A stretch of DNA of 56,654 bases, from assembly GCA_016218865.1 (NCBI GenBank), contig JACRCU010000484.1, positions 1 through 56,654 on the forward strand. The letters run 5' to 3'. The position numbers were made by a program, and so were the translations under genes. The notes beneath the pieces were generated by a model. That model was not told where the DNA came from and did not search any database. It saw only the letters and a program-made list of their open reading frames with translations. The stretch comes from Deltaproteobacteria bacterium. Lineage in GTDB: Bacteria; Myxococcota_A; UBA9042. How positions within the stretch are numbered: position 1 is the stretch's first letter; each line of letters opens with the position of its first letter. Positions 41,937-56,433 of this stretch are shown here, piece after piece.

Positions 41937-43136
41937 ATGACGAACACCTGGAGTAACTGGATTTTCAACGGCTTGCTGATTGTCGGCTTGGCGGTGCCCG
42001 CGCTGGCGCCCGCCGACGAGGCCAAGGAGGACCCGGGCCGGCCGCGCCTGCTGGTGGTGCCGCCGGCGCCGATCGGCGACGTGTCCCTGGTGCAGATCAA
42101 GCGCATCGGCAAGGGTCTGGCCGACCAGCTCAAGACCTCGTCGGTCTTCGACGTGGTCACCGACAAGGACAAGGTTGCGCAGAAGACCGACGGCAAGAAG
42201 AACGCGCCCAAGGCCAGCGCCGCGAGCAAGCGCATCGACGCCGCCGACGCGGTGCGCCAAGAGGGCATGAACCTGCAGGCAGAGGGCAAGTACAAGGAAG
42301 CGCTGGATAAATTTGGCGACGCCGTGGGCCTGTACGAGCGGGCATATCTGGAACTGGTCGACTACGGCAACCTGGCATCGTCGTACACCGGCGCGGGCGT
42401 GTCGGCCTTCTATGCCGGCCGGCCGTCGGCCGAGGTGGCGCACTGGTTCGAGCTGGGCATCGCCATCCTGCCCACCCTGGTCATCGATCGGCGCAAGCAA
42501 GACAAGGCCCTGCTGGAGCTGTTCGACAAGACCCACGAGCAGATGGACAAGCTGCCCAAGCTGAACGTGGTCATCGACGGTCCCACCACCGACGGCGTGG
42601 AAGCGTACGTCGACGGCGTCAAGATCGGCCCGCTGCCGGCCAAGGCGACCGGGCTCATCCCCGGCGTGCACTACGCGCAGATTCACGGCGAGGGCTTTGT
42701 GCCCTGGGGCACGGTGGTGCACCTGCGCGGCAAGGACAGCAAGGTGACCGCCAAGGTCGCGGCCATCAAGGTCGAAGAGAAGAAGGTCGAGGCACCGGTC
42801 ACGGTGGACGTGCTGGCAGACTGTGCGCGCTTCGGCGGCTTCCACCTGCCGGTGTGCAAGGGCCCGGCGCCCAAGCTGGCGCGGCAGGTCGGTGCGAATT
42901 TCTTCGTGTTCTCGGCGATCAAGCTGGACCGCTTCAACCGGCCGACCGTGCACGCCTTCGTCATGGAAACCGGTGACTTGCTGACGATCTCGGTCAAGCC
43001 GCAGGAGCTGGCGGCCGACCTGGGCGACCTGAACAAGAAGATGGCCGAGCTGGAGGCCGACGTGAGCAAGGCGGTCGAGAGCTTCCCCAAGGCCCGGGCG
43101 CTGCAGAAAGTGCCGGCGGTGTGGTCCGCCAAGTGA
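41937..43136 (+). CDS. Exported PEGA-like hypothetical protein
   Basis: Signal-like NWIFNGLLIVGLAVPALA; PEGA-like VVIDGPTTDGVEAYVDGVKIGPLPAKATGLIPGVHYAQIHGEGFVPW. Confidence 0.65.
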   Translation: MTNTWSNWIFNGLLIVGLAVPALAPADEAKEDPGRPRLLVVPPAPIGDVSLVQIKRIGKGLADQLKTSSVFDVVTDKDKVAQKTDGKKNAPKASAASKRIDAADAVRQEGMNLQAEGKYKEALDKFGDAVGLYERAYLELVDYGNLASSYTGAGVSAFYAGRPSAEVAHWFELGIAILPTLVIDRRKQDKALLELFDKTHEQMDKLPKLNVVIDGPTTDGVEAYVDGVKIGPLPAKATGLIPGVHYAQIHGEGFVPWGTVVHLRGKDSKVTAKVAAIKVEEKKVEAPVTVDVLADCARFGGFHLPVCKGPAPKLARQVGANFFVFSAIKLDRFNRPTVHAFVMETGDLLTISVKPQELAADLGDLNKKMAELEADVSKAVESFPKARALQKVPAVWSAK

Positions 43137-45091
43137 GCTTCCGTCCTGTCGTTTTTGCGCTGGCGGCGCTGCTGGTCGCGGCCTGCAGCAGCCCCGCTGC
43201 GCCCAGTACCGGGACCACCGTCGCCAAGGACGCCGGCGTCGACACCAACGAAGTGGACACGGCCACAGCCGACACCGGCAAGGTCGACCCCTGCCCAGGG
43301 GGCGAGGGCTGTCCGTGCGAGGACGACGCCGGCTGCGACGACCAAGACCCTTGCACCATCCGGGGTACCTGCGTCGACGGAGCCTGTACCGCGCCGACCG
43401 CCAAGCCCTGCGACGACGGCAACCAGTGCACCGAGGACTTCTGCAAGCCCGGCGGCGCCTGCGGCAGCAAGCCCAGCACCAGCTGGTGCAGCGACGGCAA
43501 CCCCTGCACGGTGGGCGACACGTGCAAGAGCGGAAGCTGCACCTCGGGCGCGGCCAAGGACTGTGGCGACGGCAACCCGTGCACCGACGACAGCTGTGTA
43601 GCGGGTCAGGGCTGCCAGTACGCGGCGAACAGCGGCGAGTGCCTTGCGGAAAATGCTTGCTCGGAGACCAGTTACTGCTCGCTCGGCGAATGCGAGCAGG
43701 GCAAGGCCAAGCCCTGCGACGACGACAACCCCTGCACCTGGAACAGCTGCGACCCCGAAACCGGCTGCCTGTACGTGGGCATCCCCGGCGCGGCCACCTG
43801 CACCGACGGCGAGCTGATCGCCGGTCGCTGCTGGAAGGCCATGAAACAAGACACGACCTGGGTCAAGGCCCGCGAGGCCTGCCACGCCTGGGGCGGCGAG
43901 CTCGCCAGCATGCGCAACCTGGCCGACAACAGCGCCGTGCGCAAAGTCGCCGACCAGGCTTGCGGGCAAGTGCCGGCTTTCTTTGGCCTCAACGACATCG
44001 CCATCGAGGGCAAGTACCGGTGGATCGACAGTGAAAGCAGCAATTACAGCAACTTCCACAGCGGCGAACCCAACAACGTCGGCAACGAAGATGTGTTCGA
44101 GATCTACGTCGACGGCACCTGGAACGACCTGCCCGAAGGCGCCACCCTGGCCTGCGCCGTGTGCAGCCGCTGGGCCAGCTATCCGTGCGACGACGGCGAA
44201 CCCTGTACGGCGCCTACGGTCTGCGAAAGCGGCTCGTGCCTGCCCGCCACGGTGACACCCAGCTGCGACGACGGCAATCCGTGCACGCTGGACGGCTGCG
44301 CCGTGGGCCTGGGCTGCGGCAACACCCCCAGCGACGACGGCAGCGCCTGCGGCGAATCCGGAGCCTGCCTGGGCGGTTACTGCGTGCTCCCCGCCGCCGA
44401 CACCACCCCCACCAGCTGCGCCGAGCTGCCCAAAGACGCCACGAGCGGCGTGTACTGGCTGGACCTGGACGGCCCGGGCGAGGCCACACCGACCCAAGTC
44501 TACTGCGACATGCAAAGCGACGGCGGCGGCTGGGCTTTGGTGCTGGAGGTCGACGGCGGCGCGGACGACAGCGCCTACGACAGCCCGGTCTGGGTCGGCA
44601 CCTCGCCGGACACAACCGCGCCGCCGTGGCCCGCCAAGATGACCGCGCGCCTCAAGGGTTACGCGGTCACGCCGCTCACGGACATCCGGCTCGTCTTCGT
44701 GGTCGACGGCGCGGCCCGCAGCATGGTCATCGCGGGCGGCCCCATGCCACCGGGCAGCAAGGGCCCCACTCTGCACCAACTGCTCACAGGCCCAAAAATC
44801 AGCACGGGCCTGAGTGTTTTGGACTGGGAGGCCCTGCTGCCCAAGGGCTCGCTGCAGGGGAACTGCCTCACTCAGGGCTTCCAGGTCGCGGCGAGCGGCG
44901 TCAAGCTGCGCCTGGGCATCTTTGGCAACAACGAGAAGGACTGCGACAGCGTCGACTCGTGGATCGGCATCGGCAGCTCGGGCGGGCCGTGTGGCGTGGG
45001 CGGCACGCTGGGCGCTGGCAACGTGGCCTGCTATGGCGCGGACCACGGCCCGGCCAAGGTGGCGGCGATGGTGTATGTGTATGTAAGGTAG
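43133..45091 (+). CDS. Lipoprotein with Cys-rich CDDGNPCT repeats, C-type lectin domain and fibrinogen-like segment
   Basis: GTGA overlap with previous gene; lipobox LLVAACSS; CDDGNQCTEDFC.., CSDGNPCTVGDTC.., CGDGNPCTDDSC..; CTLD ...AREACHAWGGELASMRN...FFGLNDIAIEGKYRWIDSESSNYSNFHSGEPNNVGNEDVFEIYVDGTWNDLPE...CAVCSR; fibrinogen-like SCAELPKDATSGVYWLDLDGPGEATPTQVYCDMQSDGGGWALVLEV. Confidence 0.85.
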   Translation: MSFRPVVFALAALLVAACSSPAAPSTGTTVAKDAGVDTNEVDTATADTGKVDPCPGGEGCPCEDDAGCDDQDPCTIRGTCVDGACTAPTAKPCDDGNQCTEDFCKPGGACGSKPSTSWCSDGNPCTVGDTCKSGSCTSGAAKDCGDGNPCTDDSCVAGQGCQYAANSGECLAENACSETSYCSLGECEQGKAKPCDDDNPCTWNSCDPETGCLYVGIPGAATCTDGELIAGRCWKAMKQDTTWVKAREACHAWGGELASMRNLADNSAVRKVADQACGQVPAFFGLNDIAIEGKYRWIDSESSNYSNFHSGEPNNVGNEDVFEIYVDGTWNDLPEGATLACAVCSRWASYPCDDGEPCTAPTVCESGSCLPATVTPSCDDGNPCTLDGCAVGLGCGNTPSDDGSACGESGACLGGYCVLPAADTTPTSCAELPKDATSGVYWLDLDGPGEATPTQVYCDMQSDGGGWALVLEVDGGADDSAYDSPVWVGTSPDTTAPPWPAKMTARLKGYAVTPLTDIRLVFVVDGAARSMVIAGGPMPPGSKGPTLHQLLTGPKISTGLSVLDWEALLPKGSLQGNCLTQGFQVAASGVKLRLGIFGNNEKDCDSVDSWIGIGSSGGPCGVGGTLGAGNVACYGADHGPAKVAAMVYVYVR

Positions 45092-45147
45092 TCACGTTTG
45101 CGTGGCCAGCGCTATTGTCCGTGGCGCCACGTGGCAGACACCGTGAC
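45091..45147 (+). promoter_or_regulatory. Cluster of CGTGRC/GYCACG half-sites (candidate activator enhancer) upstream of the + strand sigma54 promoter
   Basis: GTCACG 45091, CGTGGC 45101, CGTGGC 45120, GCCACG 45126, CGTGGC 45130, CGTGAC 45142; contains CGCCACGTGGCA. Confidence 0.5.
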
Positions 45148-45330: not shown

Positions 45331-45347
45331 TTGGCACGGCGCTTGCT
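45331..45347 (+). promoter_or_regulatory. Sigma54 (-24/-12) promoter
   Basis: TTGGCACG-GCGC-TTGCT: every specified position of YTGGCACG-N4-TTGCW, GG to GC offset 12, 64 bp before the ATG at 45411. Confidence 0.85.
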
Positions 45348-45410: not shown

Positions 45411-45740
45411 ATGCTCACGGTCCGCTCATTCGTTTCGACACACAGCCTCAACTGCGCCGCGTTGATCGTCATCACCGGGCTGCTGCTCGCGGCAACCGGT
45501 GCGGCCGACGAGAAAGCAGCCCGCAGCGGCCACCGGACATTTACCCTTAAAGACCAACCGGTTCGATCGCAAGCCGGGCCGCAGGTCAGCCCGCTGCCGG
45601 AGCAGGCGATCACCGCCAAGCCCGACAAGCCGTCGGTGACCTACATCCTCAGCCGCACGCCGCCCGTCTGGGAATGCAGTCCGGCGACCCCCAACTTTCT
45701 GCCGCGCATCCTGGTCAATGCTCGCTCGGGTCGCCTGTAG
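45411..45740 (+). CDS. Small exported hypothetical protein (sigma54-controlled candidate)
   Basis: Strong SD GAGGAGGT before ATG; signal-like LNCAALIVITGLLLAATGAADE; 109 aa. Confidence 0.7.
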   Translation: MLTVRSFVSTHSLNCAALIVITGLLLAATGAADEKAARSGHRTFTLKDQPVRSQAGPQVSPLPEQAITAKPDKPSVTYILSRTPPVWECSPATPNFLPRILVNARSGRL

Positions 45741-45764: not shown

Positions 45765-47141
45765 CTACTCCTGCGCCCGCCACGCCGCAAGCTCCTCCTG
45801 CGAAACACCGAAGGACTCAATCCAGCGGTAGATTTGCTTGCGATCGCGGCCAATGGCGCGCGCTGCCGCCCCCAAATTGCCGCGATGGGCCGCAAGAAGC
45901 TGCCGGAACTCGGCGGCTGAGTCCGGTGGCCGGGTCACGCCGTCGCCCGCCGCACTGGACTGCGGGCCGGGCGTGGTGCGTGCATCGACCGACTCTGTCA
46001 GGTAGAGCGGCAGAGCCGCAATTGTCGCGGGGACCTGGGTTGCGGACAGCCCGTACATCACACGGACGACTTCGCGCATGTTGTCAGGCCAGTCGTGACG
46101 GGCAAGCAGTTCGACCACATCGGGCGACCAGCGAGATGCCCAACTGGGCGCCGCAGGCGCTGGAAGTGCCGCCTGGCAAAGTGCCATCAGGTCCGCGCGT
46201 CGTTGGCGGAGCGGGGGGACGACCACTTCGTGGGCGCGAAGGCGCGCCAAGAGATCCTGGCGAAACTGGCCCAGGCCAACCCGCGCCCCCAGGTCGGCGT
46301 TGGTGGTCGCGACGAATTTGACATCGACGCCGTGGTCCATGTGCCCGCCCACCGGGCGGATCACCGTCGATTCCAGCACCCGTAGTAGCTTGACCTGCAA
46401 TGCCAGCGGCAGATCGCCGATCTCGTCCAGCACCAGCGTGCCCCCGTCGGCTTCACGGATGCGCCCAGGCCGGGCTTCCACCGCGCCCGAGAAAGCGCCC
46501 CGCACGTGCCCGAACAGCTCGGACTCGAACAGCGCTTCGGGAATGGCCGTTACGTTGACATAGACCAGCTTGCCATGACGCCCGCTCAGCGCGTGGACTT
46601 CGGCCGCGGCAGCTTCCTTGCCGACGCCCGTTTCGCCAGTGATCAAGACGGGCCGCGAGTCCTTGGCAGCCGCCGCCAGGCCCGCACGCATGGACCGAGC
46701 TGCCGCCGTCGTGCCGGGCGCGGCGCGGGTGGCCTTGTCGAACGCGGGGTGAACTCCTGGGTCCAGCTCGGCCACGCAGACGCACCCGCCAAAACGGAGT
46801 ACGGCGCCGGATTCGACGCTTGTCTTGCCCGTGACGGGCGCGCCGTCGACCCAAGTGCCGTTGCGGCTGCCCAGGTCGGTCACGTCGAGCACATCGCCCG
46901 CGGGCAGCAAGCCGACGTGGCTGCGCGACAGCGTCGCATCGGCGACGGCCAGCAGGTGCCGCGGGGTAGCATCGGGAGCCGGCTCGCGGCCAACAACGGT
47001 GGTCATGGGCGGCAAGGTCGTGGCCACGCCGACCAGACGCGGATCCAATGCGGTCAGGAAGTGCAGGCGCCAGCGCGGGGTGTGGAGTGGTGGTCCGGCC
47101 GAGGCGAAGCGCGGCGCGGTCTGGGTGGTGGTGGCGCACAT
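45765..47141 (-). CDS. FHA-domain sigma54-dependent transcriptional activator (EBP)
   Basis: FHA: VVGREP...LSRSHVGL...VTDLGSRNGTWVDG; AAA+: GETGVGKEAAAAE, ELFGHVRGAFSGAVEARPGRIREADGGTLVLDEIGDLPLALQVKLLRVLE; Fis-type HTH LLAAHRGNLGAAARAIGRDRKQIYRWIESFGVS. Confidence 0.95.
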   Translation of the reverse strand: MCATTTQTAPRFASAGPPLHTPRWRLHFLTALDPRLVGVATTLPPMTTVVGREPAPDATPRHLLAVADATLSRSHVGLLPAGDVLDVTDLGSRNGTWVDGAPVTGKTSVESGAVLRFGGCVCVAELDPGVHPAFDKATRAAPGTTAAARSMRAGLAAAAKDSRPVLITGETGVGKEAAAAEVHALSGRHGKLVYVNVTAIPEALFESELFGHVRGAFSGAVEARPGRIREADGGTLVLDEIGDLPLALQVKLLRVLESTVIRPVGGHMDHGVDVKFVATTNADLGARVGLGQFRQDLLARLRAHEVVVPPLRQRRADLMALCQAALPAPAAPSWASRWSPDVVELLARHDWPDNMREVVRVMYGLSATQVPATIAALPLYLTESVDARTTPGPQSSAAGDGVTRPPDSAAEFRQLLAAHRGNLGAAARAIGRDRKQIYRWIESFGVSQEELAAWRAQE

Positions 47142-47263
47142 GCTTTCCTCACCGGCGCGTTGGACGCGGGCGAGGGTAGCACGGCGGCGGCGGCGGGGAA
47201 ATCGACGCTGTTTTGGTACGGAGTGTCAGGGACTTGGCTGATCATGGCCGCCGGCGGCGGTGA

Positions 47264-50200
47264 TCAGTTCGGGATGTGGACGCAGCCCTTGGCCGGGTCG
47301 CAGAGATCGAGGGTGGTCGGGTCGCCGTCGTTGCAGCTGTCGGGGGTCAGGCCGGCGCAGGCTGTGCAGGTGGCGTTGCCCCAGGGGTCGAGGCGGGCCA
47401 ACATGCCCTTGCCTTTGGCCTCTTCAATGCCGGCCAAGACGATGGCGCCATTCGGGAGTTCTGCCGCGCCATTGACGCGCGAGTTGCCAATCGCAGGGTA
47501 GCCGGCGAGCGAACGCGACCAGAGCGGAAGTCCCTCAATTGTCGTCTTGATTACCAGCCCGTGAGCGTTTCCACCAACAACGTCATAGCCTGCGAGCAAC
47601 ACGCTGCCGTCACTAAGTAGGGTGCCACGGTTGTAGCTCAGCAGGGTCGAGGTGCCAATCTGCTTCTCCCATTGTACGACGCCGCCGCTGTTGAGGCGAA
47701 TGAGTATGAATTTCGACTCCTTGTTCCCAAAATTCGCGGTTCGGGTTCCCGCCACAAGCCAGCCGCTGCCGTCCTTCCCCGGCCACACCGATGCCGCCGC
47801 GCTGGCTCCTAGGCCTGGATATGTTTGCGAGAAGATGACGGTCCCGTCCGGCTTGGTGGCCACAACCAATGCAACATCGATTCCGTTGTTGGCGGCCTGG
47901 CTGCGACGAAAACCCGCCATTGCCCGGTTGCCGGATCCATCAAGACCGATACCCTGGAACTGATCGCTCCAGTCGGCCTCCGCGTAAACGAAGTAGCTCG
48001 GTACCCCGGCGGGACTGACTCCAACGACCCAGCCAGAGTACAATCCTGAGGTGATATTGTTTGGCGTGAATCCGGCGAGCCAGGCCGTGCCGTCCGGGGC
48101 AATGGCGACATCGTTGGCACCGTCTTGGCCTGCCTTTCCTAAGCTGAGGTCGAAGGAGGTTGGCTGTCCGACCACAAGTGGCATTCGGACAACTCTGGCG
48201 TTGCTGCCGTTTGCACCATCCTGGCGCGAGCCCACAGCAATGATGCTGTCCGAGTTTGTTTCGATGGCGGTAAGGTAGTCGGCTTCCGGCAAGGCAATCG
48301 ATCGCGGATAACCGCTCATCTCCTTCCCGTCGGCACCGAACGCATGAATTTCGCTGTCGTAAGAGTCAGCTGGTTTGCCCGTGGCCACAACCCCTGCTGC
48401 GACGACAACACCGCTTGGAGACAGCGCAACGTCGGCCAATGTCTGGACGGTCCCTGGAACCAAGGCCACGCCGAAGGCTTCCGAGGCTCCGGCGCAGGTT
48501 CCGCCTGCGCAGATGTCGCCAGCCGTGCACGCATCGCCATCGTCGCACGGAGCCTTGTCCACCAGCGCAACGTGAGAGCACCCAGCCTTTCCGTCACAGC
48601 CGTCGGCCGTGCACGGCTCGCCGTCGTCGCACGCTGCGGGCAACTTTTCCGCACAGCTTCCTGCATCAGCGCACGCCGTGTGGCCAAACGCGTCGGCACG
48701 GATGGCCCAACCACTGCTGGCCGCGCCTTTGCTAGCAGTGCTACCTACCGCAAGCAGGCCGATTCCTGCGGGTGTGGGCGCCACGTCCCAGAGGACATTG
48801 GGGCCGGACGCCGATCCAAGTACGGACGCCCAAAGTGCATTGCCCTGATGGTCGAGGACGGCCGCCACGGAACTGCCCTGGTCGGGAGCCTGTTTGTCAG
48901 CCCCAACAAGGACCAGCTTGTCGGTGTCGAAGGCGGCAATTCGGCCGTAGCTTGCGGTGAGCGGCAATTTGGGTTCACTGGCCCACATGAGATTGCCGTA
49001 CAGGTCGCAGCGGGCGAGCCAGACAGTGCCACTCGGGAGGGATCCGGAAGCGCCGCCCGCCATGAAGTATCCACCAGGCACCGCTACGACGCTCATTGCG
49101 ACAACCCCTGATCCGAAATACCGGCGTTTCCAAAGGGTTTCGCCGGTTTCCGTCACCATTGCCGCCCACGGATCGGGGTCCGCAGTCGACGATCCATCGC
49201 GGCCCACCAGCAAGTACTTGGTCGTATCGCCCTGCACTTCCAGCATTGCTTCAGCTTCAGTACCTTGTCCGCTTCCAAGGTAGATGTTTGGCTTTACGCC
49301 GCCGAGGTTGTCAACAATCCCAAACCAGGCGTGGTCAACGGACTTCACTTCGGCTGGCTGCGTGGTGCCGCAATAGGCGACGCCGCCATCACTGCGCGCA
49401 ACGACCGCCGCAATCGACTCGTCGTTGGCACCTGGATACGAGACCTGGACCGGCCCCAGCGATGCCACCGCCTCCCCCCAGGTAATCTTCGCCACTAGAC
49501 CCTTGTCTGTACCCTGCGCGGTCCTGCTCCCGCCGACAACAACAGTTTCGCCGCCGACGTCGAGTGCAGATGCGCCTTCGTAGTCGATACCGGCGAGATT
49601 GGGCTGCCACTTGACCGCTCCCGCATCGTCCATCCCGACGACCCACAGATCGGCACCGCCAGTACCTGCCCTGGCACCAACAGCCACGGCGCGACGACTG
49701 TCGAGCCACTTCGTGCGCTTGAGGAACCCACCGCCTAATGCGGGAAACGTGGTCTCGAAGAGGCTGGGCGCACCGGCCTGGCACTTGCCCGACAGGCAGT
49801 TCCCATCCGTCGTGCACGGCTTGCCATCGTCGCAAGCACTGCCATCCGCAAGGTTGCTGTGCTTGCAGCCGGTCTTGTCGTCGCAGGTGTCCGCAGTACA
49901 TGGCAGGCCGTCGTCGCAATCTGCCAATGACTTCCCGTCGCAAACCCCAAGCTTGCCACAGTCAGTGTTGCCAAGATCGTTGACGCGAAGGGCAAGACCG
50001 ATTCCTTTGTTGCCGTCGCTGCCGGCCACCACGACCCCACCGCTTGGCAAGGCGACAACTACATAGCCTAGCTGAGCGCCGGCGCCGCCGAACTCACTGT
50101 GCCACAGCTCTGCGCCAAGCCCGTTGATCTTCGCAAACCACAGCTGTGCCTCGCCGCTTGCGGTGCCCGCAAAAGTGTACCCTGCCAGCATGAACGAGTC

Positions 50201-52738
50201 ATCGGACAGTGTCGCGAATGCACCCGGCAAGACCGACTGAGTCACTGGCAGCTTCTTGTCCCATACCACGCCACCCGTAGAATCGAAGCGAACCAGCCAC
50301 GGCTGATAGTCCGTCTGAAGGCCGGAGCTGTGCCGCAGACCCAGAGCCAGCAGGCCGCCGTCGCTGGCCGCGATCGCCGCAACGAAGCCCTGGTCCTTGC
50401 CGTCTTCGTAGAAGTACTTCCGTGGCCCCTGCGCCTTGAGATTGGTATCGATGCGCTGCAGATAGCCGCCACCGTGATTTCCTGCACCAGAATGGCCCAA
50501 CAAGCAGAACTGGCTGCCGCAGGGTGCGATGGCGTTGACGTCCGTGGGATAGGCGTTGGGAAAGTACCGCGCGCTTCCGAGTTGGATGATGCCGCTGGCG
50601 CTGACGTTGATGTCCGCGATGGTAGCGTCAGGGTGGGCACCACCGCTGGGAAGGGTGCTGGCGCCGCCGACGAGCCACGTACCGTTGGCGAACGCGTGAA
50701 CGGTATTGAACACCATCGTCGTGCCAGGCGTGCCGAGGAACTTCTGGTCGATGAGTTCGCCTTCGGCGTCGATCGTGACCGCCCAGCCGCGGACGTCGGT
50801 CGGGTAGCCCTTGACAGAGCTTTGGCCGACCGCCAATGCTCGGCCATCGCCAATATCGACGACGCCGCTGAACAGCGAGTATGCCGTGCCGGCACCGTAG
50901 GTCCTCAGCCAGACGATCTTGCCGTCGTCTCGGACCCTGGCCGCCCAGCCGGCGTCCGTCGCCGCGCCCGTGCCCTTGCTGGCCTGGCCGATCACCAGGA
51001 ATCCGTCCGCATACGCGGCGGTTGCGCCGGCTGCCACCGCGGTCTTGAAGCCCGGTATGGCGAATTCCACAGGCCCGAGCGCGGGTCCGCCCGCAACGCA
51101 CTTTCCGCCCTTGCAGCTATCCCCGAGCGTGCAAGCACTGCCATCCTGGCAAGCATCGCCATCCGCGACGGCGACGACCACGCAACCCTTGGTCACGTCA
51201 CAGCTATCCTTGGTGCAATCGTTTCCATCGTCACAGTTCTTCAGGCCGCCCGCCAAGCACTTGCCCTCGACGCAGCTGTCGCTGACGGTGCACGGATTGC
51301 CGTCGTCGCAGGCACCACTGGATTTGGTGACGTGCGTGCAGCCCTTGCTGCTGTCGCAGGCGTCGTCGGTGCAGGCGTTGCCGTCGTTGCAGTCGAACTT
51401 GACTCCGGGCGTGCAGGTGCCGCCGGTGCAGGTGTCGGCCAGCGTACAGGCGTCGCCGTCGCTGCAGGCCGCGCCGGTCTGGGTGACGCTGACGCAGCCC
51501 TGGGCGGGGTCGCACTGGTCGGTCGTACAGCCCTTGCCGTCGTCGCAGTTGACCAGCTTGCCCCCGGCACACAGACCTGCGGCGCAGACATCGCCGGTTG
51601 TGCAAGCGCTGCCGTCGCTGCACGGCGCCTGATTGTTGACGAAGGTGCAGCCCTTGGCAGGGTCGCAGCTGTCGTCTGTGCAGGGGTTGCCGTCGCCGCA
51701 GGCCGTCGCGGCTGAACTGGTGCACGCGCCCGCGAGGTCGCAGTGGTCGCCCGCGGTGCAAGCGTCGCCATCACTGCAGGAGGCCCCGACCATCGGGTCG
51801 TTGGCGCAGCCCTTCAGCGGATCGCAATGGTCGAACGTGCAAACCTTGCCGTCGTCGCAGGCTTTGGGCTCGCTGCCCGCGCAGGCCTTGGCGCCGTCGC
51901 AGGCCGATTGCAGCGTGCAGGCATTGCCGTCGTCGCAAGCCGCGCCCTTGGCGGTGGCCTTGAACTCGCAGCCGGTCGCGGGGTTGCAGGTGTCGTCGGT
52001 GCAGGCATTGCCGTCGCTGCAGGCCACCGCCGTGCCGCCACTGCACGCGCCGGTTTGGCAGGACTCGCCAGCGGTGCAGGCGTTCCCATCGCTGCAGGCC
52101 CCCGTCGTGGCCGCGTGCGCGCACCCCTTGGCTGCGTCGCAGCTGTCGACGGTACAGGGGTTGTTGTCACTGCAGTCTACGATTCCGGTGTGGCCACACG
52201 TTCCTGACTTGCAGGCATCGCCAGTGGTACAGGCATCGCCGTCATCGCAGGCGGCGGAGTTGGCGGGATGGGCACAACCGGCCGACTTGTCGCAGGCCGG
52301 ATCATCGGTGCAGGGATTGTTATCCGCGCACACGACGGCGTTGCCGCCCTTGCAGGTGCCACCCTGGCACGTGTCGCCGCTGGTGCACGCGTCACCGTCG
52401 TCGCACGCGCCGGATGTTGGAGTGTTGATGCAGCCCGTGCCCGGGGAGCAGGTGTCCTTGGTGCAGATATTGTCGTCGTCGCAGTCACTGCAGGCGTTCG
52501 TGTCCGCGGTTTCGGCATCCGTGTCTTGGACTTGGCCATTGCCAGCGCCGGTTGCACAAATGGGCACGCCGCCGGCGTCGACCAAGTGGTAGCCGGCAGG
52601 GCAGCCAATCTTGGGCTCGGCACTGCAACCTGCGCCAAGAAGGCATAGCGTGGCAACCACCGCTTTGAGTAGAGGTTGGAGGCGGAAGAGCGGGCGATAC
52701 CAGCAGGCACCCGATGTTTTCGTCGCGGAGTCAGCCAT
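47264..52738 (-). CDS. Giant (1824 aa) lipoprotein: Cys-rich repeat array plus three propeller-like domains
   Basis: Lipobox LLGAGCSAEP; about 18 alternating N-terminal Cys repeats (CxDGNxCTxDxCDxxxGC / ACxDGxACTxGDxCxxGxC); further dyads between SBBP/delta-60-like propeller segments (VIGQASKGTGAATDAGWAARVRDDGKIVWLRTYG...). Confidence 0.88.
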   Translation of the reverse strand: MADSATKTSGACWYRPLFRLQPLLKAVVATLCLLGAGCSAEPKIGCPAGYHLVDAGGVPICATGAGNGQVQDTDAETADTNACSDCDDDNICTKDTCSPGTGCINTPTSGACDDGDACTSGDTCQGGTCKGGNAVVCADNNPCTDDPACDKSAGCAHPANSAACDDGDACTTGDACKSGTCGHTGIVDCSDNNPCTVDSCDAAKGCAHAATTGACSDGNACTAGESCQTGACSGGTAVACSDGNACTDDTCNPATGCEFKATAKGAACDDGNACTLQSACDGAKACAGSEPKACDDGKVCTFDHCDPLKGCANDPMVGASCSDGDACTAGDHCDLAGACTSSAATACGDGNPCTDDSCDPAKGCTFVNNQAPCSDGSACTTGDVCAAGLCAGGKLVNCDDGKGCTTDQCDPAQGCVSVTQTGAACSDGDACTLADTCTGGTCTPGVKFDCNDGNACTDDACDSSKGCTHVTKSSGACDDGNPCTVSDSCVEGKCLAGGLKNCDDGNDCTKDSCDVTKGCVVVAVADGDACQDGSACTLGDSCKGGKCVAGGPALGPVEFAIPGFKTAVAAGATAAYADGFLVIGQASKGTGAATDAGWAARVRDDGKIVWLRTYGAGTAYSLFSGVVDIGDGRALAVGQSSVKGYPTDVRGWAVTIDAEGELIDQKFLGTPGTTMVFNTVHAFANGTWLVGGASTLPSGGAHPDATIADINVSASGIIQLGSARYFPNAYPTDVNAIAPCGSQFCLLGHSGAGNHGGGYLQRIDTNLKAQGPRKYFYEDGKDQGFVAAIAASDGGLLALGLRHSSGLQTDYQPWLVRFDSTGGVVWDKKLPVTQSVLPGAFATLSDDSFMLAGYTFAGTASGEAQLWFAKINGLGAELWHSEFGGAGAQLGYVVVALPSGGVVVAGSDGNKGIGLALRVNDLGNTDCGKLGVCDGKSLADCDDGLPCTADTCDDKTGCKHSNLADGSACDDGKPCTTDGNCLSGKCQAGAPSLFETTFPALGGGFLKRTKWLDSRRAVAVGARAGTGGADLWVVGMDDAGAVKWQPNLAGIDYEGASALDVGGETVVVGGSRTAQGTDKGLVAKITWGEAVASLGPVQVSYPGANDESIAAVVARSDGGVAYCGTTQPAEVKSVDHAWFGIVDNLGGVKPNIYLGSGQGTEAEAMLEVQGDTTKYLLVGRDGSSTADPDPWAAMVTETGETLWKRRYFGSGVVAMSVVAVPGGYFMAGGASGSLPSGTVWLARCDLYGNLMWASEPKLPLTASYGRIAAFDTDKLVLVGADKQAPDQGSSVAAVLDHQGNALWASVLGSASGPNVLWDVAPTPAGIGLLAVGSTASKGAASSGWAIRADAFGHTACADAGSCAEKLPAACDDGEPCTADGCDGKAGCSHVALVDKAPCDDGDACTAGDICAGGTCAGASEAFGVALVPGTVQTLADVALSPSGVVVAAGVVATGKPADSYDSEIHAFGADGKEMSGYPRSIALPEADYLTAIETNSDSIIAVGSRQDGANGSNARVVRMPLVVGQPTSFDLSLGKAGQDGANDVAIAPDGTAWLAGFTPNNITSGLYSGWVVGVSPAGVPSYFVYAEADWSDQFQGIGLDGSGNRAMAGFRRSQAANNGIDVALVVATKPDGTVIFSQTYPGLGASAAASVWPGKDGSGWLVAGTRTANFGNKESKFILIRLNSGGVVQWEKQIGTSTLLSYNRGTLLSDGSVLLAGYDVVGGNAHGLVIKTTIEGLPLWSRSLAGYPAIGNSRVNGAAELPNGAIVLAGIEEAKGKGMLARLDPWGNATCTACAGLTPDSCNDGDPTTLDLCDPAKGCVHIPN
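51080..52510 (-). repeat. Coding array of ~18 Cys-rich repeats (about 9 B-A dyads)
   Basis: Alternating CDDxNPCTxDxCDxxxGCxx and ACDDGDACTxGDxCxxGxCxGG units in the translated minus strand. Confidence 0.85.
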
Positions 52739-52780
52739 GAGAACCCCCTTGAACCTTGCGGATGTGGCCGCACCAAGGAA

Positions 52781-53872
52781 CTAGAAACGCCATGCCAACG
52801 CGGCACCAGACCTGTTCGGCATCACTTGGAATACAGACGTATTTTCCGAATGTTCAGGCCAAAGAGCCAGTACCGCGCTGGCCACCGCCAGTGCACCGGC
52901 GCCTGCCGCGGCGCCCCACATAGCCCCAATGTCGGCCTCGCGCTGACGCAGCTCAGGATACGAAATGCGTGTAAGATCATAGGTATCGCTGGAAGGAAAC
53001 TTCGCGTCGTTGAGGCTGTTGTATTGCAGCAGTGCAGCTGTCGCCACACCGATTGCCACGGCTCCGGCCGCAACCGCAGCCCATCGAACCATGGAACGGC
53101 TGGCAGCCGGAGCCGCCGCACATTCGGCTTGGCTCGCGATCGCGGTGCAGCTGGTCGCCGCAGCTTCGCCGGCCGCCGGCAGCATCGCGACGCGAGCCGC
53201 ACAGGCCTGCTTGGCTTGTTGCAGTGCATTGTTGTGCGCTGCAAGGCGATCCGCCGCACAAGCGGTTTCCGCCAAACACGACGACGACGACGCCACCGCA
53301 TGGTCGGCAAGGGCAAGTTGCTGGTCCACCGGAAGGTCGGCGGCCTTGCCGCATTCCAGCCACTTGGCTGCGGCCGAGCAGGACTGCTTGCGCTCATCGA
53401 AGGCAGCGGCCACGGCGTCGCAGGGAAGCTCACAAATCTCTTTGGTTGCTGCCCTGTTGCAGGCCTCGCGCACCGCTGGCGTCTGCAGGATGTCCGCCAC
53501 GATCGCGAACGAGCTGCGCCGGGCGCAGGCGGCAACGGCCATGGAGGCGTGCTGTCCGCACAAGGCCGGCTGATGGCGGTTGGCCTGGGCGGCGGCGTAC
53601 CAGAGCTCGATGGCCTTGGCCAGACGCAGCATACGGCCGCGCTCTCCCAGTGCCACGGCGCGAACCGACAATTCGTCGTGAAGCGCGGCCGCTTCGCCAT
53701 ACCTGCGGGCGGCCTCGAACTCGTTGGCCTGTTTCACCACAGGCGCGAGACACGCCACCTCGCCCGCAGCAATGCACTGCTCGGCTTCGCTGTCGAGCGC
53801 CGCGGCCTGGCCGGCATCGAAGACGATGGCAAGGAGGGCAAGAGCTAGCGCATAGACGAGCCGTGTGGGCAT
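52781..53872 (-). CDS. Cys-rich exported/membrane hypothetical protein
   Basis: Signal peptide MPTRLVYALALALLAIVFDAGQAAA; multiple Cys; two C-terminal hydrophobic segments (MVRWAAVAAGAVAIGVATAALL; MWGAAAGAGALAVASAVLALW). Confidence 0.75.
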   Translation of the reverse strand: MPTRLVYALALALLAIVFDAGQAAALDSEAEQCIAAGEVACLAPVVKQANEFEAARRYGEAAALHDELSVRAVALGERGRMLRLAKAIELWYAAAQANRHQPALCGQHASMAVAACARRSSFAIVADILQTPAVREACNRAATKEICELPCDAVAAAFDERKQSCSAAAKWLECGKAADLPVDQQLALADHAVASSSSCLAETACAADRLAAHNNALQQAKQACAARVAMLPAAGEAAATSCTAIASQAECAAAPAASRSMVRWAAVAAGAVAIGVATAALLQYNSLNDAKFPSSDTYDLTRISYPELRQREADIGAMWGAAAGAGALAVASAVLALWPEHSENTSVFQVMPNRSGAALAWRF

Positions 53873-53926
53873 CGTGACCTCAGGCGGCGAACAGGTGCCG
53901 GCAACGTTCCGACGAGTGTATACCTG

Positions 53927-53943
53927 AGCAAGATGCGTGCCAA
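53927..53943 (-). promoter_or_regulatory. Sigma54 (-24/-12) promoter
   Basis: Minus strand TTGGCACG-CATC-TTGCT, GG to GC offset 12, about 55 bp before the start codon at 53872. Confidence 0.85.
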
Positions 53944-54150
53944 CGTGGGGGGATTAACCTTCACCTCATTCTAATTACAGACTATCTCGTTCGCTGGCCG
54001 GCGCGCGCAGCCAGACCTGGCCCCGCGCCGCCCCCAGCGACACACCTCGCCCAAGGGCTATCGGCGGGACGGCGGCCACGCGCGAACAAAAGACGATAGG
54101 ATTTCGCTATGTTTCGGGTCGAGACAGCATTCCGACGGGCAGGACTGCCG

Positions 54151-54191
54151 CGTGACCTCGCCGTGACCATGCCACGCCCATGCCACGTGAC
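54151..54191 (-). promoter_or_regulatory. Cluster of CGTGRC/GYCACG half-sites (candidate activator enhancer) upstream of the - strand sigma54 promoter
   Basis: CGTGAC 54151, CGTGAC 54162, GCCACG 54171, GCCACG 54182, CGTGAC 54186; 11-bp spacing within each like-oriented pair; contains TGCCACGTGACA. Confidence 0.5.
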
Positions 54192-54258
54192 AGATTGGGT
54201 GGCCAAGAGATCCCCGCCGTTCCCTAGAAGCGCCCCACCGCATCCCGGGGCAAACCCG

Positions 54259-56433
54259 TCAATGGCAAAGCGGATCACTAGGGAAACAGTCGCACAGGTC
54301 TTCCAAGCTCGCCTTGTTCCTATCGACGATGCAGTGGCAGCGGTAGTCCTTGTGCGATGGGCAACGCGTTTTCGCGCACTTGCACCATGGGCCGTGGGGC
54401 GGTCCCGCAGCTGGCGCGGCACAGTCGAAGTCCCGGCATGGACAGTGCGCGGAGTCGGCGTCGGGGCACTTGTCGCACCACGCCTTCACGTTCGGGCAGA
54501 ACTGAGCGCACAAGACGGCCGGATCGGAGGATTTGCACGGGTCTGGGGGTGGACACCGCGCCGGATCGCGGTCGACGCACGCTTTGCACCATTCCGCATT
54601 GGGCGCATCCGAGCAGTTGGAGCAGTAAAGCTCCTTGGACTTCGAGGCGCAGGTGCTGCACCAGTGCGAGCGGTCGTCGGCGCAAAATTGCTTGCAAAAC
54701 AGCGCGGGATCCTGGGCCTTGCACGGATCGTCCGACGGACACTTGGACGAGTCCGTGTGCGGACACGACTTGCACCAGCGGGTCTGGTCCTCGGGGCAAA
54801 ATTGCCTGCAGAAAACCGCCGCATCCTGCGACTTGCATGGTTCGCAGCGGTCCTGCCAGTGCTTGGCAAAGGGGCTGGATTTGCAGCGGGTGCACCAATC
54901 CTGGCTGTCGGTCAGGCAACTTCCGCAGAAGATGGCCGGGTCCTTGCTCTGGCATGGAGGTGGCGGTGGTGGCGGCGGGGGGTATCCACCACCGGGCGAC
55001 GGCTTCTCATCCTCCCGGCCGCCGCAGTCATCCGCATCGCAAGCGTCGGTGTCGCCACCACAATCACCGTCGTCCACGCAATCGCCAGAGTCCGCGTCGT
55101 CTCCCGTGTCGGTGTATGATTCGGTTTCCGTGTCCGCGTCCGGAGGACTCACGCTGTCGGGCTCGTGGCTTCCTGTCCCGTACCACACGATCGCCACGAC
55201 GACTGCAACGACCAGCGCCAACAGCGCGGCGACTACCAGCGCCGGCACGCCGGACTTGCCGGAAGCTGACGCGATACCTTGGGTTGTCTCCGGAGCCTCG
55301 CCGGGGGGAGCAACTACTGGGGCAGTCTGGCTTGGAACAGGTGGAGTTGGCGTGACCGGCTTGCGAAGGGGCGCCGGCATGGGTGCCGTTGGCGGCTCTG
55401 GAGGCAGCGGCTGCGACGCCAGAACGGGCGCGATCGGTGCCGGGGTGACCGGCAGGGCGCGCTGCGGAGCGGGCTCGGCAAGCCACTGCTCCAGGGCGGC
55501 GCGCATCGCAGCAGCGGACTCGAAACGGTCGTCCGGCGACTTGGCCAGAGCCCGCGCCACCAAGGCCTCCAGCCGCGGGTCGATGCCTGGGACGAATTCA
55601 GACAGTGCCAAAGGCTGCGCATGGACATGGGCAAAGCACAGCGCGATTTGGTCTGTGGCCATGTACGGCTGCTGGCCGGTCAGGCAGCGAAACAGTATAA
55701 TTCCAAGCGAATAGAGATCCGAGCGACCATCCATCGCCGTGCCCATCACCTGCTCTGGGCTCATGTAGTGCGGCGTTCCAAAGATCGTACCGGTTTGCGT
55801 GAGCGCCGCCTGGCCGACATTGCGCAACGCCTTGGCGATGCCCCAGTCGATGACTTTGACGAACGGCTCGTCCTCGCCGCCGATGTCGCACAAGAAGATG
55901 TTGTCCGGCTTCAAGTCGCGGTGGACGAAATTCTTGCTGTGCGCTTCTTGCAGGGACTTGAGAACCTGGACAGCCACCTTGACCGCGTGGCGCGGCTCCA
56001 AGCGTTGGTGGCCCGCCAAATCCCGTTCCAGCACATGGCCGTTCAGGAATTCCATGGCCATGTAGAGGTCGCCTTCGGGCGTCACGCCGGAGTCGAATAC
56101 GCGAACCGTGTTGGGGTGGCTCAGTTTCGCCGTGATGACAGCTTCGGCAAGGAAGCGCGCCTCGGTTTCCTTGTTCTGCTGCAAGCCAGGGCGCAGCAGC
56201 TTGATGGCATATTCTTGTTTATTGTTAATATGATAGGCAACATAGACGACACCAAATCCGCCGCGACTGAGCTCGCGGGTGACCCGGTAGCGACCAGCGA
56301 TGAGGCCGCCAACGCGCGGGAGGCTCGGACTGGTGGCTTCGGCGGTGGGAGTGCCATCGTTTGGACAATTCGCCTCGTCCGTGAGCGTCTCGCAAAGCGG
56401 ACAGACACGCTGAGGCAGGTGCGGCTGGTCCAC
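54259..56433 (-). CDS. Receptor Ser/Thr protein kinase with Cys-rich ectodomain
   Basis: Kinase motifs GRYRVTRELSRGGFGVVYVAYH, YAIKLL, FVHRDLKPDNIFL, VIDWGIAKAL, GTPHYMSPEQ, DGRSDLYSLGIILF; TM VPALVVAALLALVVAVVVAIVWYG; four CxxxDPAxxCxxFC...WCxxC repeats. Confidence 0.94.
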   Translation of the reverse strand: MDQPHLPQRVCPLCETLTDEANCPNDGTPTAEATSPSLPRVGGLIAGRYRVTRELSRGGFGVVYVAYHINNKQEYAIKLLRPGLQQNKETEARFLAEAVITAKLSHPNTVRVFDSGVTPEGDLYMAMEFLNGHVLERDLAGHQRLEPRHAVKVAVQVLKSLQEAHSKNFVHRDLKPDNIFLCDIGGEDEPFVKVIDWGIAKALRNVGQAALTQTGTIFGTPHYMSPEQVMGTAMDGRSDLYSLGIILFRCLTGQQPYMATDQIALCFAHVHAQPLALSEFVPGIDPRLEALVARALAKSPDDRFESAAAMRAALEQWLAEPAPQRALPVTPAPIAPVLASQPLPPEPPTAPMPAPLRKPVTPTPPVPSQTAPVVAPPGEAPETTQGIASASGKSGVPALVVAALLALVVAVVVAIVWYGTGSHEPDSVSPPDADTETESYTDTGDDADSGDCVDDGDCGGDTDACDADDCGGREDEKPSPGGGYPPPPPPPPPCQSKDPAIFCGSCLTDSQDWCTRCKSSPFAKHWQDRCEPCKSQDAAVFCRQFCPEDQTRWCKSCPHTDSSKCPSDDPCKAQDPALFCKQFCADDRSHWCSTCASKSKELYCSNCSDAPNAEWCKACVDRDPARCPPPDPCKSSDPAVLCAQFCPNVKAWCDKCPDADSAHCPCRDFDCAAPAAGPPHGPWCKCAKTRCPSHKDYRCHCIVDRNKASLEDLCDCFPSDPLCH

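Follow-up and report, generated by a model that had tools for sequence, protein, structure and literature searches.

We identified a sigma-54 promoter (positions 53927 to 53943, minus strand) in the window, i.e. the whole stretch of 56,654 nucleotides analysed. It lies in front of a predicted two-gene operon for an exported protein of 363 aa and a giant Cys-rich protein of 1824 aa, and it is accompanied by genes for a Ser/Thr kinase and an FHA-domain sigma-54 activator. On the minus strand the kinase gene comes first, then 386 bp of intergenic DNA holding the promoter, the 363-aa gene, the 1824-aa gene and the FHA activator. We consider it probable, at roughly 60%, that this region encodes an auto-amplifying circuit in which the kinase would act through the FHA activator on the sigma-54 promoter of an envelope lipoprotein. 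The feature is real and its parts are ordinary, FHA activators being already known; their arrangement is informative. This reading is built on the promoter match, the gene order, the encoded domains, the intact FHA, ATPase and GAF[ST]GA motifs of the activator and the recurrence of the arrangement in relatives.

The promoter reads TTGGCACGCATCTTGCT (minus strand, 53943-53927) and matches TTGGCACG-N4-TTGCW exactly at all fixed consensus positions, with GG and GC elements of the TGGCACG-N4-TTGC form at -24/-12 spacing. An initial annotation of this DNA had described a perfect sigma-54 site at these positions with a transcription start near 53916. The site was borne out: the window has exact TGGCACG-N4-TTGC matches at only two positions (45332 plus and 53928 minus; shuffle mean 0.05), and the same predicted start position is implied by the -12 element. 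A looser pattern, TGG-N9-TGC, was discarded as too unspecific (106 matches in the window, where about 60 would be expected). Across the genome (5.35 Mb, 82% complete) there were 34 exact matches vs 0 for the reversed pattern, and the excess over the reversed pattern was also seen in most of 36 related genomes. About 3.6 exact matches in this genome are predicted from base composition, so that roughly one in ten of the exact sites could be due to chance.

Exact sites are positioned like promoters. Among the 90 found across G000, G004 and G002, three genomes of the genus, 44 had a gene start downstream in the sigma-54 direction, taken as a codon-biased ORF with a length of 100 aa or more whose start lay 20-150 nt away, compared to 6 of 90 in the opposite direction (Fisher p ~1e-10). 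Some exact sites fall inside genes, as would be expected of matches that arose by chance and have no promoter function. For the site at 53927-53943 we regard such an origin as very improbable, since it is intergenic, correctly oriented and located 55 bp upstream of the ATG of the 363-aa gene, a distance typical among exact sites, and since a similarly organised locus of the same genus (L199, G004:C58) has a site in the same place. We thus consider the site to be a real sigma-54 promoter, with its activity predicted from sequence.

Genes behind exact sites often encode exported proteins or lipoproteins, and Flp pilin and CpaB genes were also among them. This is in line with published work in which the main role of sigma-54 is seen in control of the cell exterior (PMC3162934). 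RpoN itself is encoded in the genome (L020, G000:C343) with AID, CBD and DBD domains. The rpoN start is preceded, at a distance of 70 nt, by a perfect sigma-54 site, which suggests autoregulation. On another contig (G000:C32, L002-L004) genes for Flp pilin, CpaB and a TadE/TadG-like protein each lie behind an exact sigma-54 site, so the tad pilus may be sigma-54-controlled.

The promoter region also contains a weak sigma-70-like match, TTGGCA-17-TACACT (53915..53943, minus strand), which overlaps the sigma-54 site. Transcription might therefore proceed mainly from a sigma-70-type promoter, with the sigma-54 match incidental or secondary. The sigma-70-like sequence agrees at 9 of 12 positions and the same TTGGCA is common to both elements; however, about 1.2 such matches are expected by chance in an 11.7-kb stretch vs 0.05 exact sigma-54 matches per window, and the exact sigma-54 matches are, as described above, placed like promoters genome-wide. 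We hence judge mainly sigma-70-type transcription to be unlikely, while some additional sigma-70 transcription from the overlapping match is possible.

The sigma-54 promoter is followed by the 363-aa gene (52781..53872, minus strand) and, after an intergenic gap of 42 bp (52739..52780), by the 1824-aa gene (47264..52738, minus strand). The initial annotation had placed about 42 bp and no obvious promoter between the two genes; the ORF coordinates and the gap were confirmed, and no promoter-like match was found within the 42 bp. Both genes lie on the same strand, and in L199 the two genes of the corresponding pair are 30 bp apart. It is well supported by this arrangement that one sigma-54 promoter drives both genes as a unit, i.e. 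that they are probably co-transcribed. The two-gene sigma-54 operon as initially proposed was nevertheless incomplete, in that it missed the FHA activator, the kinase and the gene behind a second sigma-54 site. Similar adjacent gene pairs were found at several other loci of the family, with the promoter kept in one of them (L199).

The 363-aa protein had been called Cys-rich, a label that does not hold, as it contains only 14 Cys (3.9%) and lacks a Cys-rich repeat. It has a signal-like N-terminus and two C-terminal transmembrane (TM) segments. Neither Pfam nor NCBIfam yielded a match and no TPR repeats were detected in the protein itself; we term it TPR-like because its close homologues show weak TPR matches, which are below curated cut-offs. 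A search for related loci with the single protein as query returned no relatives. A profile of its family (A2) linked it to homologues in G002, G004 and G005, and also reached, at E 6e-10, a TPR protein that G010:C28 encodes beside an FHA activator. For the 363-aa protein, AlphaFold gave a model of unusable quality (mean pLDDT 49).

The 1824-aa protein carries a lipoprotein-type signal (LLGAGC), 107 Cys and at least 11 Dicty_CTDC repeats (Pfam PF00526, E 9.9e-52, 11 stretches), along with a weak delta-60 repeat match (TIGR02608) below the cut-off. With its DDGNxCTxDxC repeats and lipoprotein-type signal it resembles the giant Dicty_CTDC proteins of myxobacteria-like bacteria. Unlike those, its gene is tied to a sigma-54/kinase module and to a TPR-like partner with which it is probably co-transcribed. 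Elsewhere in the window a second adjacent pair was observed on the plus strand, where a gene for a 399-aa exported protein (41937-43136) overlaps one for a 656-aa lipoprotein (43121-45091) that combines Dicty_CTDC repeats with C-type lectin and fibrinogen-like domains.

Upstream of the promoter, the gene at 54259..56433 (minus strand) encodes a Hanks-type Ser/Thr kinase of 724 aa (Pfam Pkinase, E 1.6e-46) with the catalytic loop HRDLKPDN, one hydrophobic TM segment apparent in the translation and a Cys-rich C-terminal region; we presume it to be the sensor. The presumed cognate activator is encoded at the other end (45765..47141, minus strand; 458 aa) and combines FHA, AAA+ and HTH domains without a receiver domain (Pfam Sigma54_activat, E 2.7e-52; FHA, E 5.6e-9). 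It holds the Walker A sequence GETGVGKE, the phosphothreonine-binding FHA residues SRSH and NGT, and a C-terminal RDRKQIYRW helix of the HTH that is kept with small changes. Its loop reads GAFSGA and not GAFTGA, and this T-to-S variant is also present in 3 of 12 aligned relatives. The ATPase, GA[FY][ST]GA and FHA motifs were intact in all 13 aligned activators.

The activator gene follows the giant gene after a gap of 123 bp, and a strong stem-loop extends across the stop codon of the giant gene (47238..47267, minus strand; fold z = -2.1 for 149 nt). It lacks a U-tract and was not called as a terminator; it could possibly be an attenuator or an mRNA end. The gap and the stem-loop may separate the activator gene from the operon.

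Relatives of the activator, with about 40-51% identity along almost the entire protein, occur throughout the family with up to five per genome, and the activator of the window is the sole close family member in its own genome. A broader activator search gave mostly matches to the AAA+ domain from many phyla and was not useful. In 13 of 20 mapped neighbourhoods of the family a Ser/Thr kinase was encoded within two genes of the FHA activator, vs 3 kinases in 261 kb of control sequence (gene calls in the loci of relatives came from a simple codon-bias script and not from a trained gene finder). The order kinase, TPR-like protein, activator and lipoprotein was frequent (L207, L214, L216), and exact sigma-54 sites were present inside five modules (L185, L194, L197, L199, L203), often directly before the activator gene. 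In L185 the exact site lies between the kinase and the activator operon, as in the window. The clearest case is L199, which has on one strand a perfect site, a 346-aa protein of the TPR-like type with two TM segments (TPR-like/2TM), a 1159-aa Cys-rich lipoprotein, a kinase and an FHA activator. In L194 (G004:C375) and L197 (G002:C76) separate perfect sigma-54 sites belong to the FHA activator, to a Cys-rich protein about 2000 aa long and to the kinase.

Homologous gene pairs without an activator nearby carried a sigma-54 site in none of four cases (G002:C31, G004:C157, G005:C171, G017:C145), and the suggestion that every TPR/2TM and Cys-rich pair is sigma-54-controlled was rejected on account of these four. 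The promoter and the activator thus appear to travel together, although site presence with and without an activator (2/2 vs 0/4) was compared on small numbers (Fisher p ~0.07). This bears on a further explanation, according to which the two-gene operon is under an unrelated sigma-54 activator encoded elsewhere, and the FHA activator has other target genes or a transcript of its own. In its favour, some 20 or more further sigma-54 activators are encoded in the genome and each of them could act at this promoter, the stem-loop lies in the gap before the FHA activator gene, and the modules share no enhancer motif (no k-mer or dyad was common to ten module promoters). Against this, FHA activators were found repeatedly beside kinases, TPR proteins, Cys-rich lipoproteins and exact sigma-54 sites, and the activator-less pairs lack the site. 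We therefore see control by an unrelated activator as a less likely explanation, albeit one of some weight, and favour regulation by the adjacent FHA activator.

The second perfect sigma-54 promoter (45331..45347, plus strand) reads TTGGCACGGCGCTTGCT and precedes an ORF for a small exported protein of 109 aa (45411..45740, plus strand), which has a strong ribosome-binding site (GAGGAGG) and a signal-like N-terminus, is convergent with the FHA activator gene and gave no Pfam match. In L185 a gene for a 105-aa exported protein likewise lies directly behind a sigma-54 site. Upstream of both perfect sites of the window we noted candidate enhancers. The first (54146..54192, minus strand) comprises TGTCACGTGGCA, a tandem GTGGCATGG with its two copies 11 bp apart, and GGTCACGCGGCA, and is situated about 205-250 bp upstream of the promoter at 53943-53927. 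The second, CGCCACGTGGCA (45125..45136, plus strand), precedes the second promoter by about 200 bp. The window has two exact copies of CACGTGGCA, and one of them lies upstream of each perfect site, within the near-palindromes TGTCACGTGGCA and CGCCACGTGGCA. A partial echo was seen in L199, where two copies of GTGGCATGG and one of GTCACGTG, the only ones in 20 kb, lie upstream of the promoter.

Genome-wide, exact TGYCACGTGRCA was found in two places, one at the locus and one inside a coding region, and with one mismatch allowed it occurred at the control (chance) level, so that the motif alone does not predict targets. Half-sites of the form TGTC[AG]C were enriched at module promoters (mean 1.8 vs 0.66, p 0.0009) in an exploratory comparison for which the motif was picked after looking. 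The palindromes 200-250 bp upstream of the two sites were chosen post hoc and are candidate enhancers only.

The comparison with relatives suggests that the promoter is part of a signalling cassette that recurs among them, and that cell-surface proteins of this type would be switched on there by a receptor-like kinase together with an activator that reads phospho-threonine. The transmembrane Ser/Thr kinase would sense an envelope signal via its Cys-rich outer part and create a phospho-threonine, to which the FHA domain of the presumably paired activator would bind. From a binding site some 200-250 bp upstream, the AAA+ activator would then open sigma-54 polymerase at the 53943-53927 promoter and at the 45332 site. 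The resulting transcript would give rise to the TPR-like, membrane-anchored envelope protein (363 aa) and to the giant Cys-rich lipoprotein (1824 aa), which is predicted to reside at the cell surface. Partial read-through may extend into the FHA activator gene, and the additional activator made would provide positive feedback.

FHA-domain sigma-54 activators have been described in Myxococcus xanthus (Jelsbak, Givskov, Kaiser 2005 PNAS 102:3010, cited in PMC6971385 and PMC12288465). As far as these citing papers describe them, they have in common with the activator at 45765-47141 that an FHA domain takes the place of the receiver domain at the N-terminus. The activator at 45765-47141 is set in a cassette of kinase, TPR-like/2TM protein, giant lipoprotein and perfect site. 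The proposed circuit resembles NtrC-type two-component systems in its membrane kinase, its AAA+ activator that would be controlled by phosphorylation and its sigma-54 promoter. In contrast to these, a Ser/Thr kinase and a phospho-threonine-reading FHA domain replace the histidine kinase and the receiver, and the locus is not a member of this class. Type VI secretion with PpkA and Fha is another case in which a Ser/Thr kinase, an FHA protein and sigma-54 control are part of one system. The locus likewise has these three elements, a likeness that is only a lead; unlike in type VI secretion, no secretion genes were identified at the locus, and the FHA domain is fused to the activator itself.

For a cassette with a kinase, a TPR-like partner and a giant Cys-rich lipoprotein we found no description in the literature searched, with most subscription papers lying outside it. 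Many kinase-rich bacteria encode FHA-domain sigma-54 activators, for which the partner kinases and targets are mostly unknown. At this locus the kinase and the FHA activator lie next to a perfect promoter and its likely output, and a genome of the same genus has a similarly organised copy, which makes the wiring directly testable. The locus also places the giant Cys-rich repeat lipoproteins of these bacteria in a regulatory setting. More tentatively, the kinase, TPR-like/2TM adaptor, FHA-sigma-54 activator and giant lipoprotein might form a dedicated class of one-pathway cassettes that has multiplied in the family, where each copy would control a lipoprotein of its own from an autoregulated sigma-54 promoter. 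If true, kinase signalling through the cassette copies would let cells select between different surface coats.
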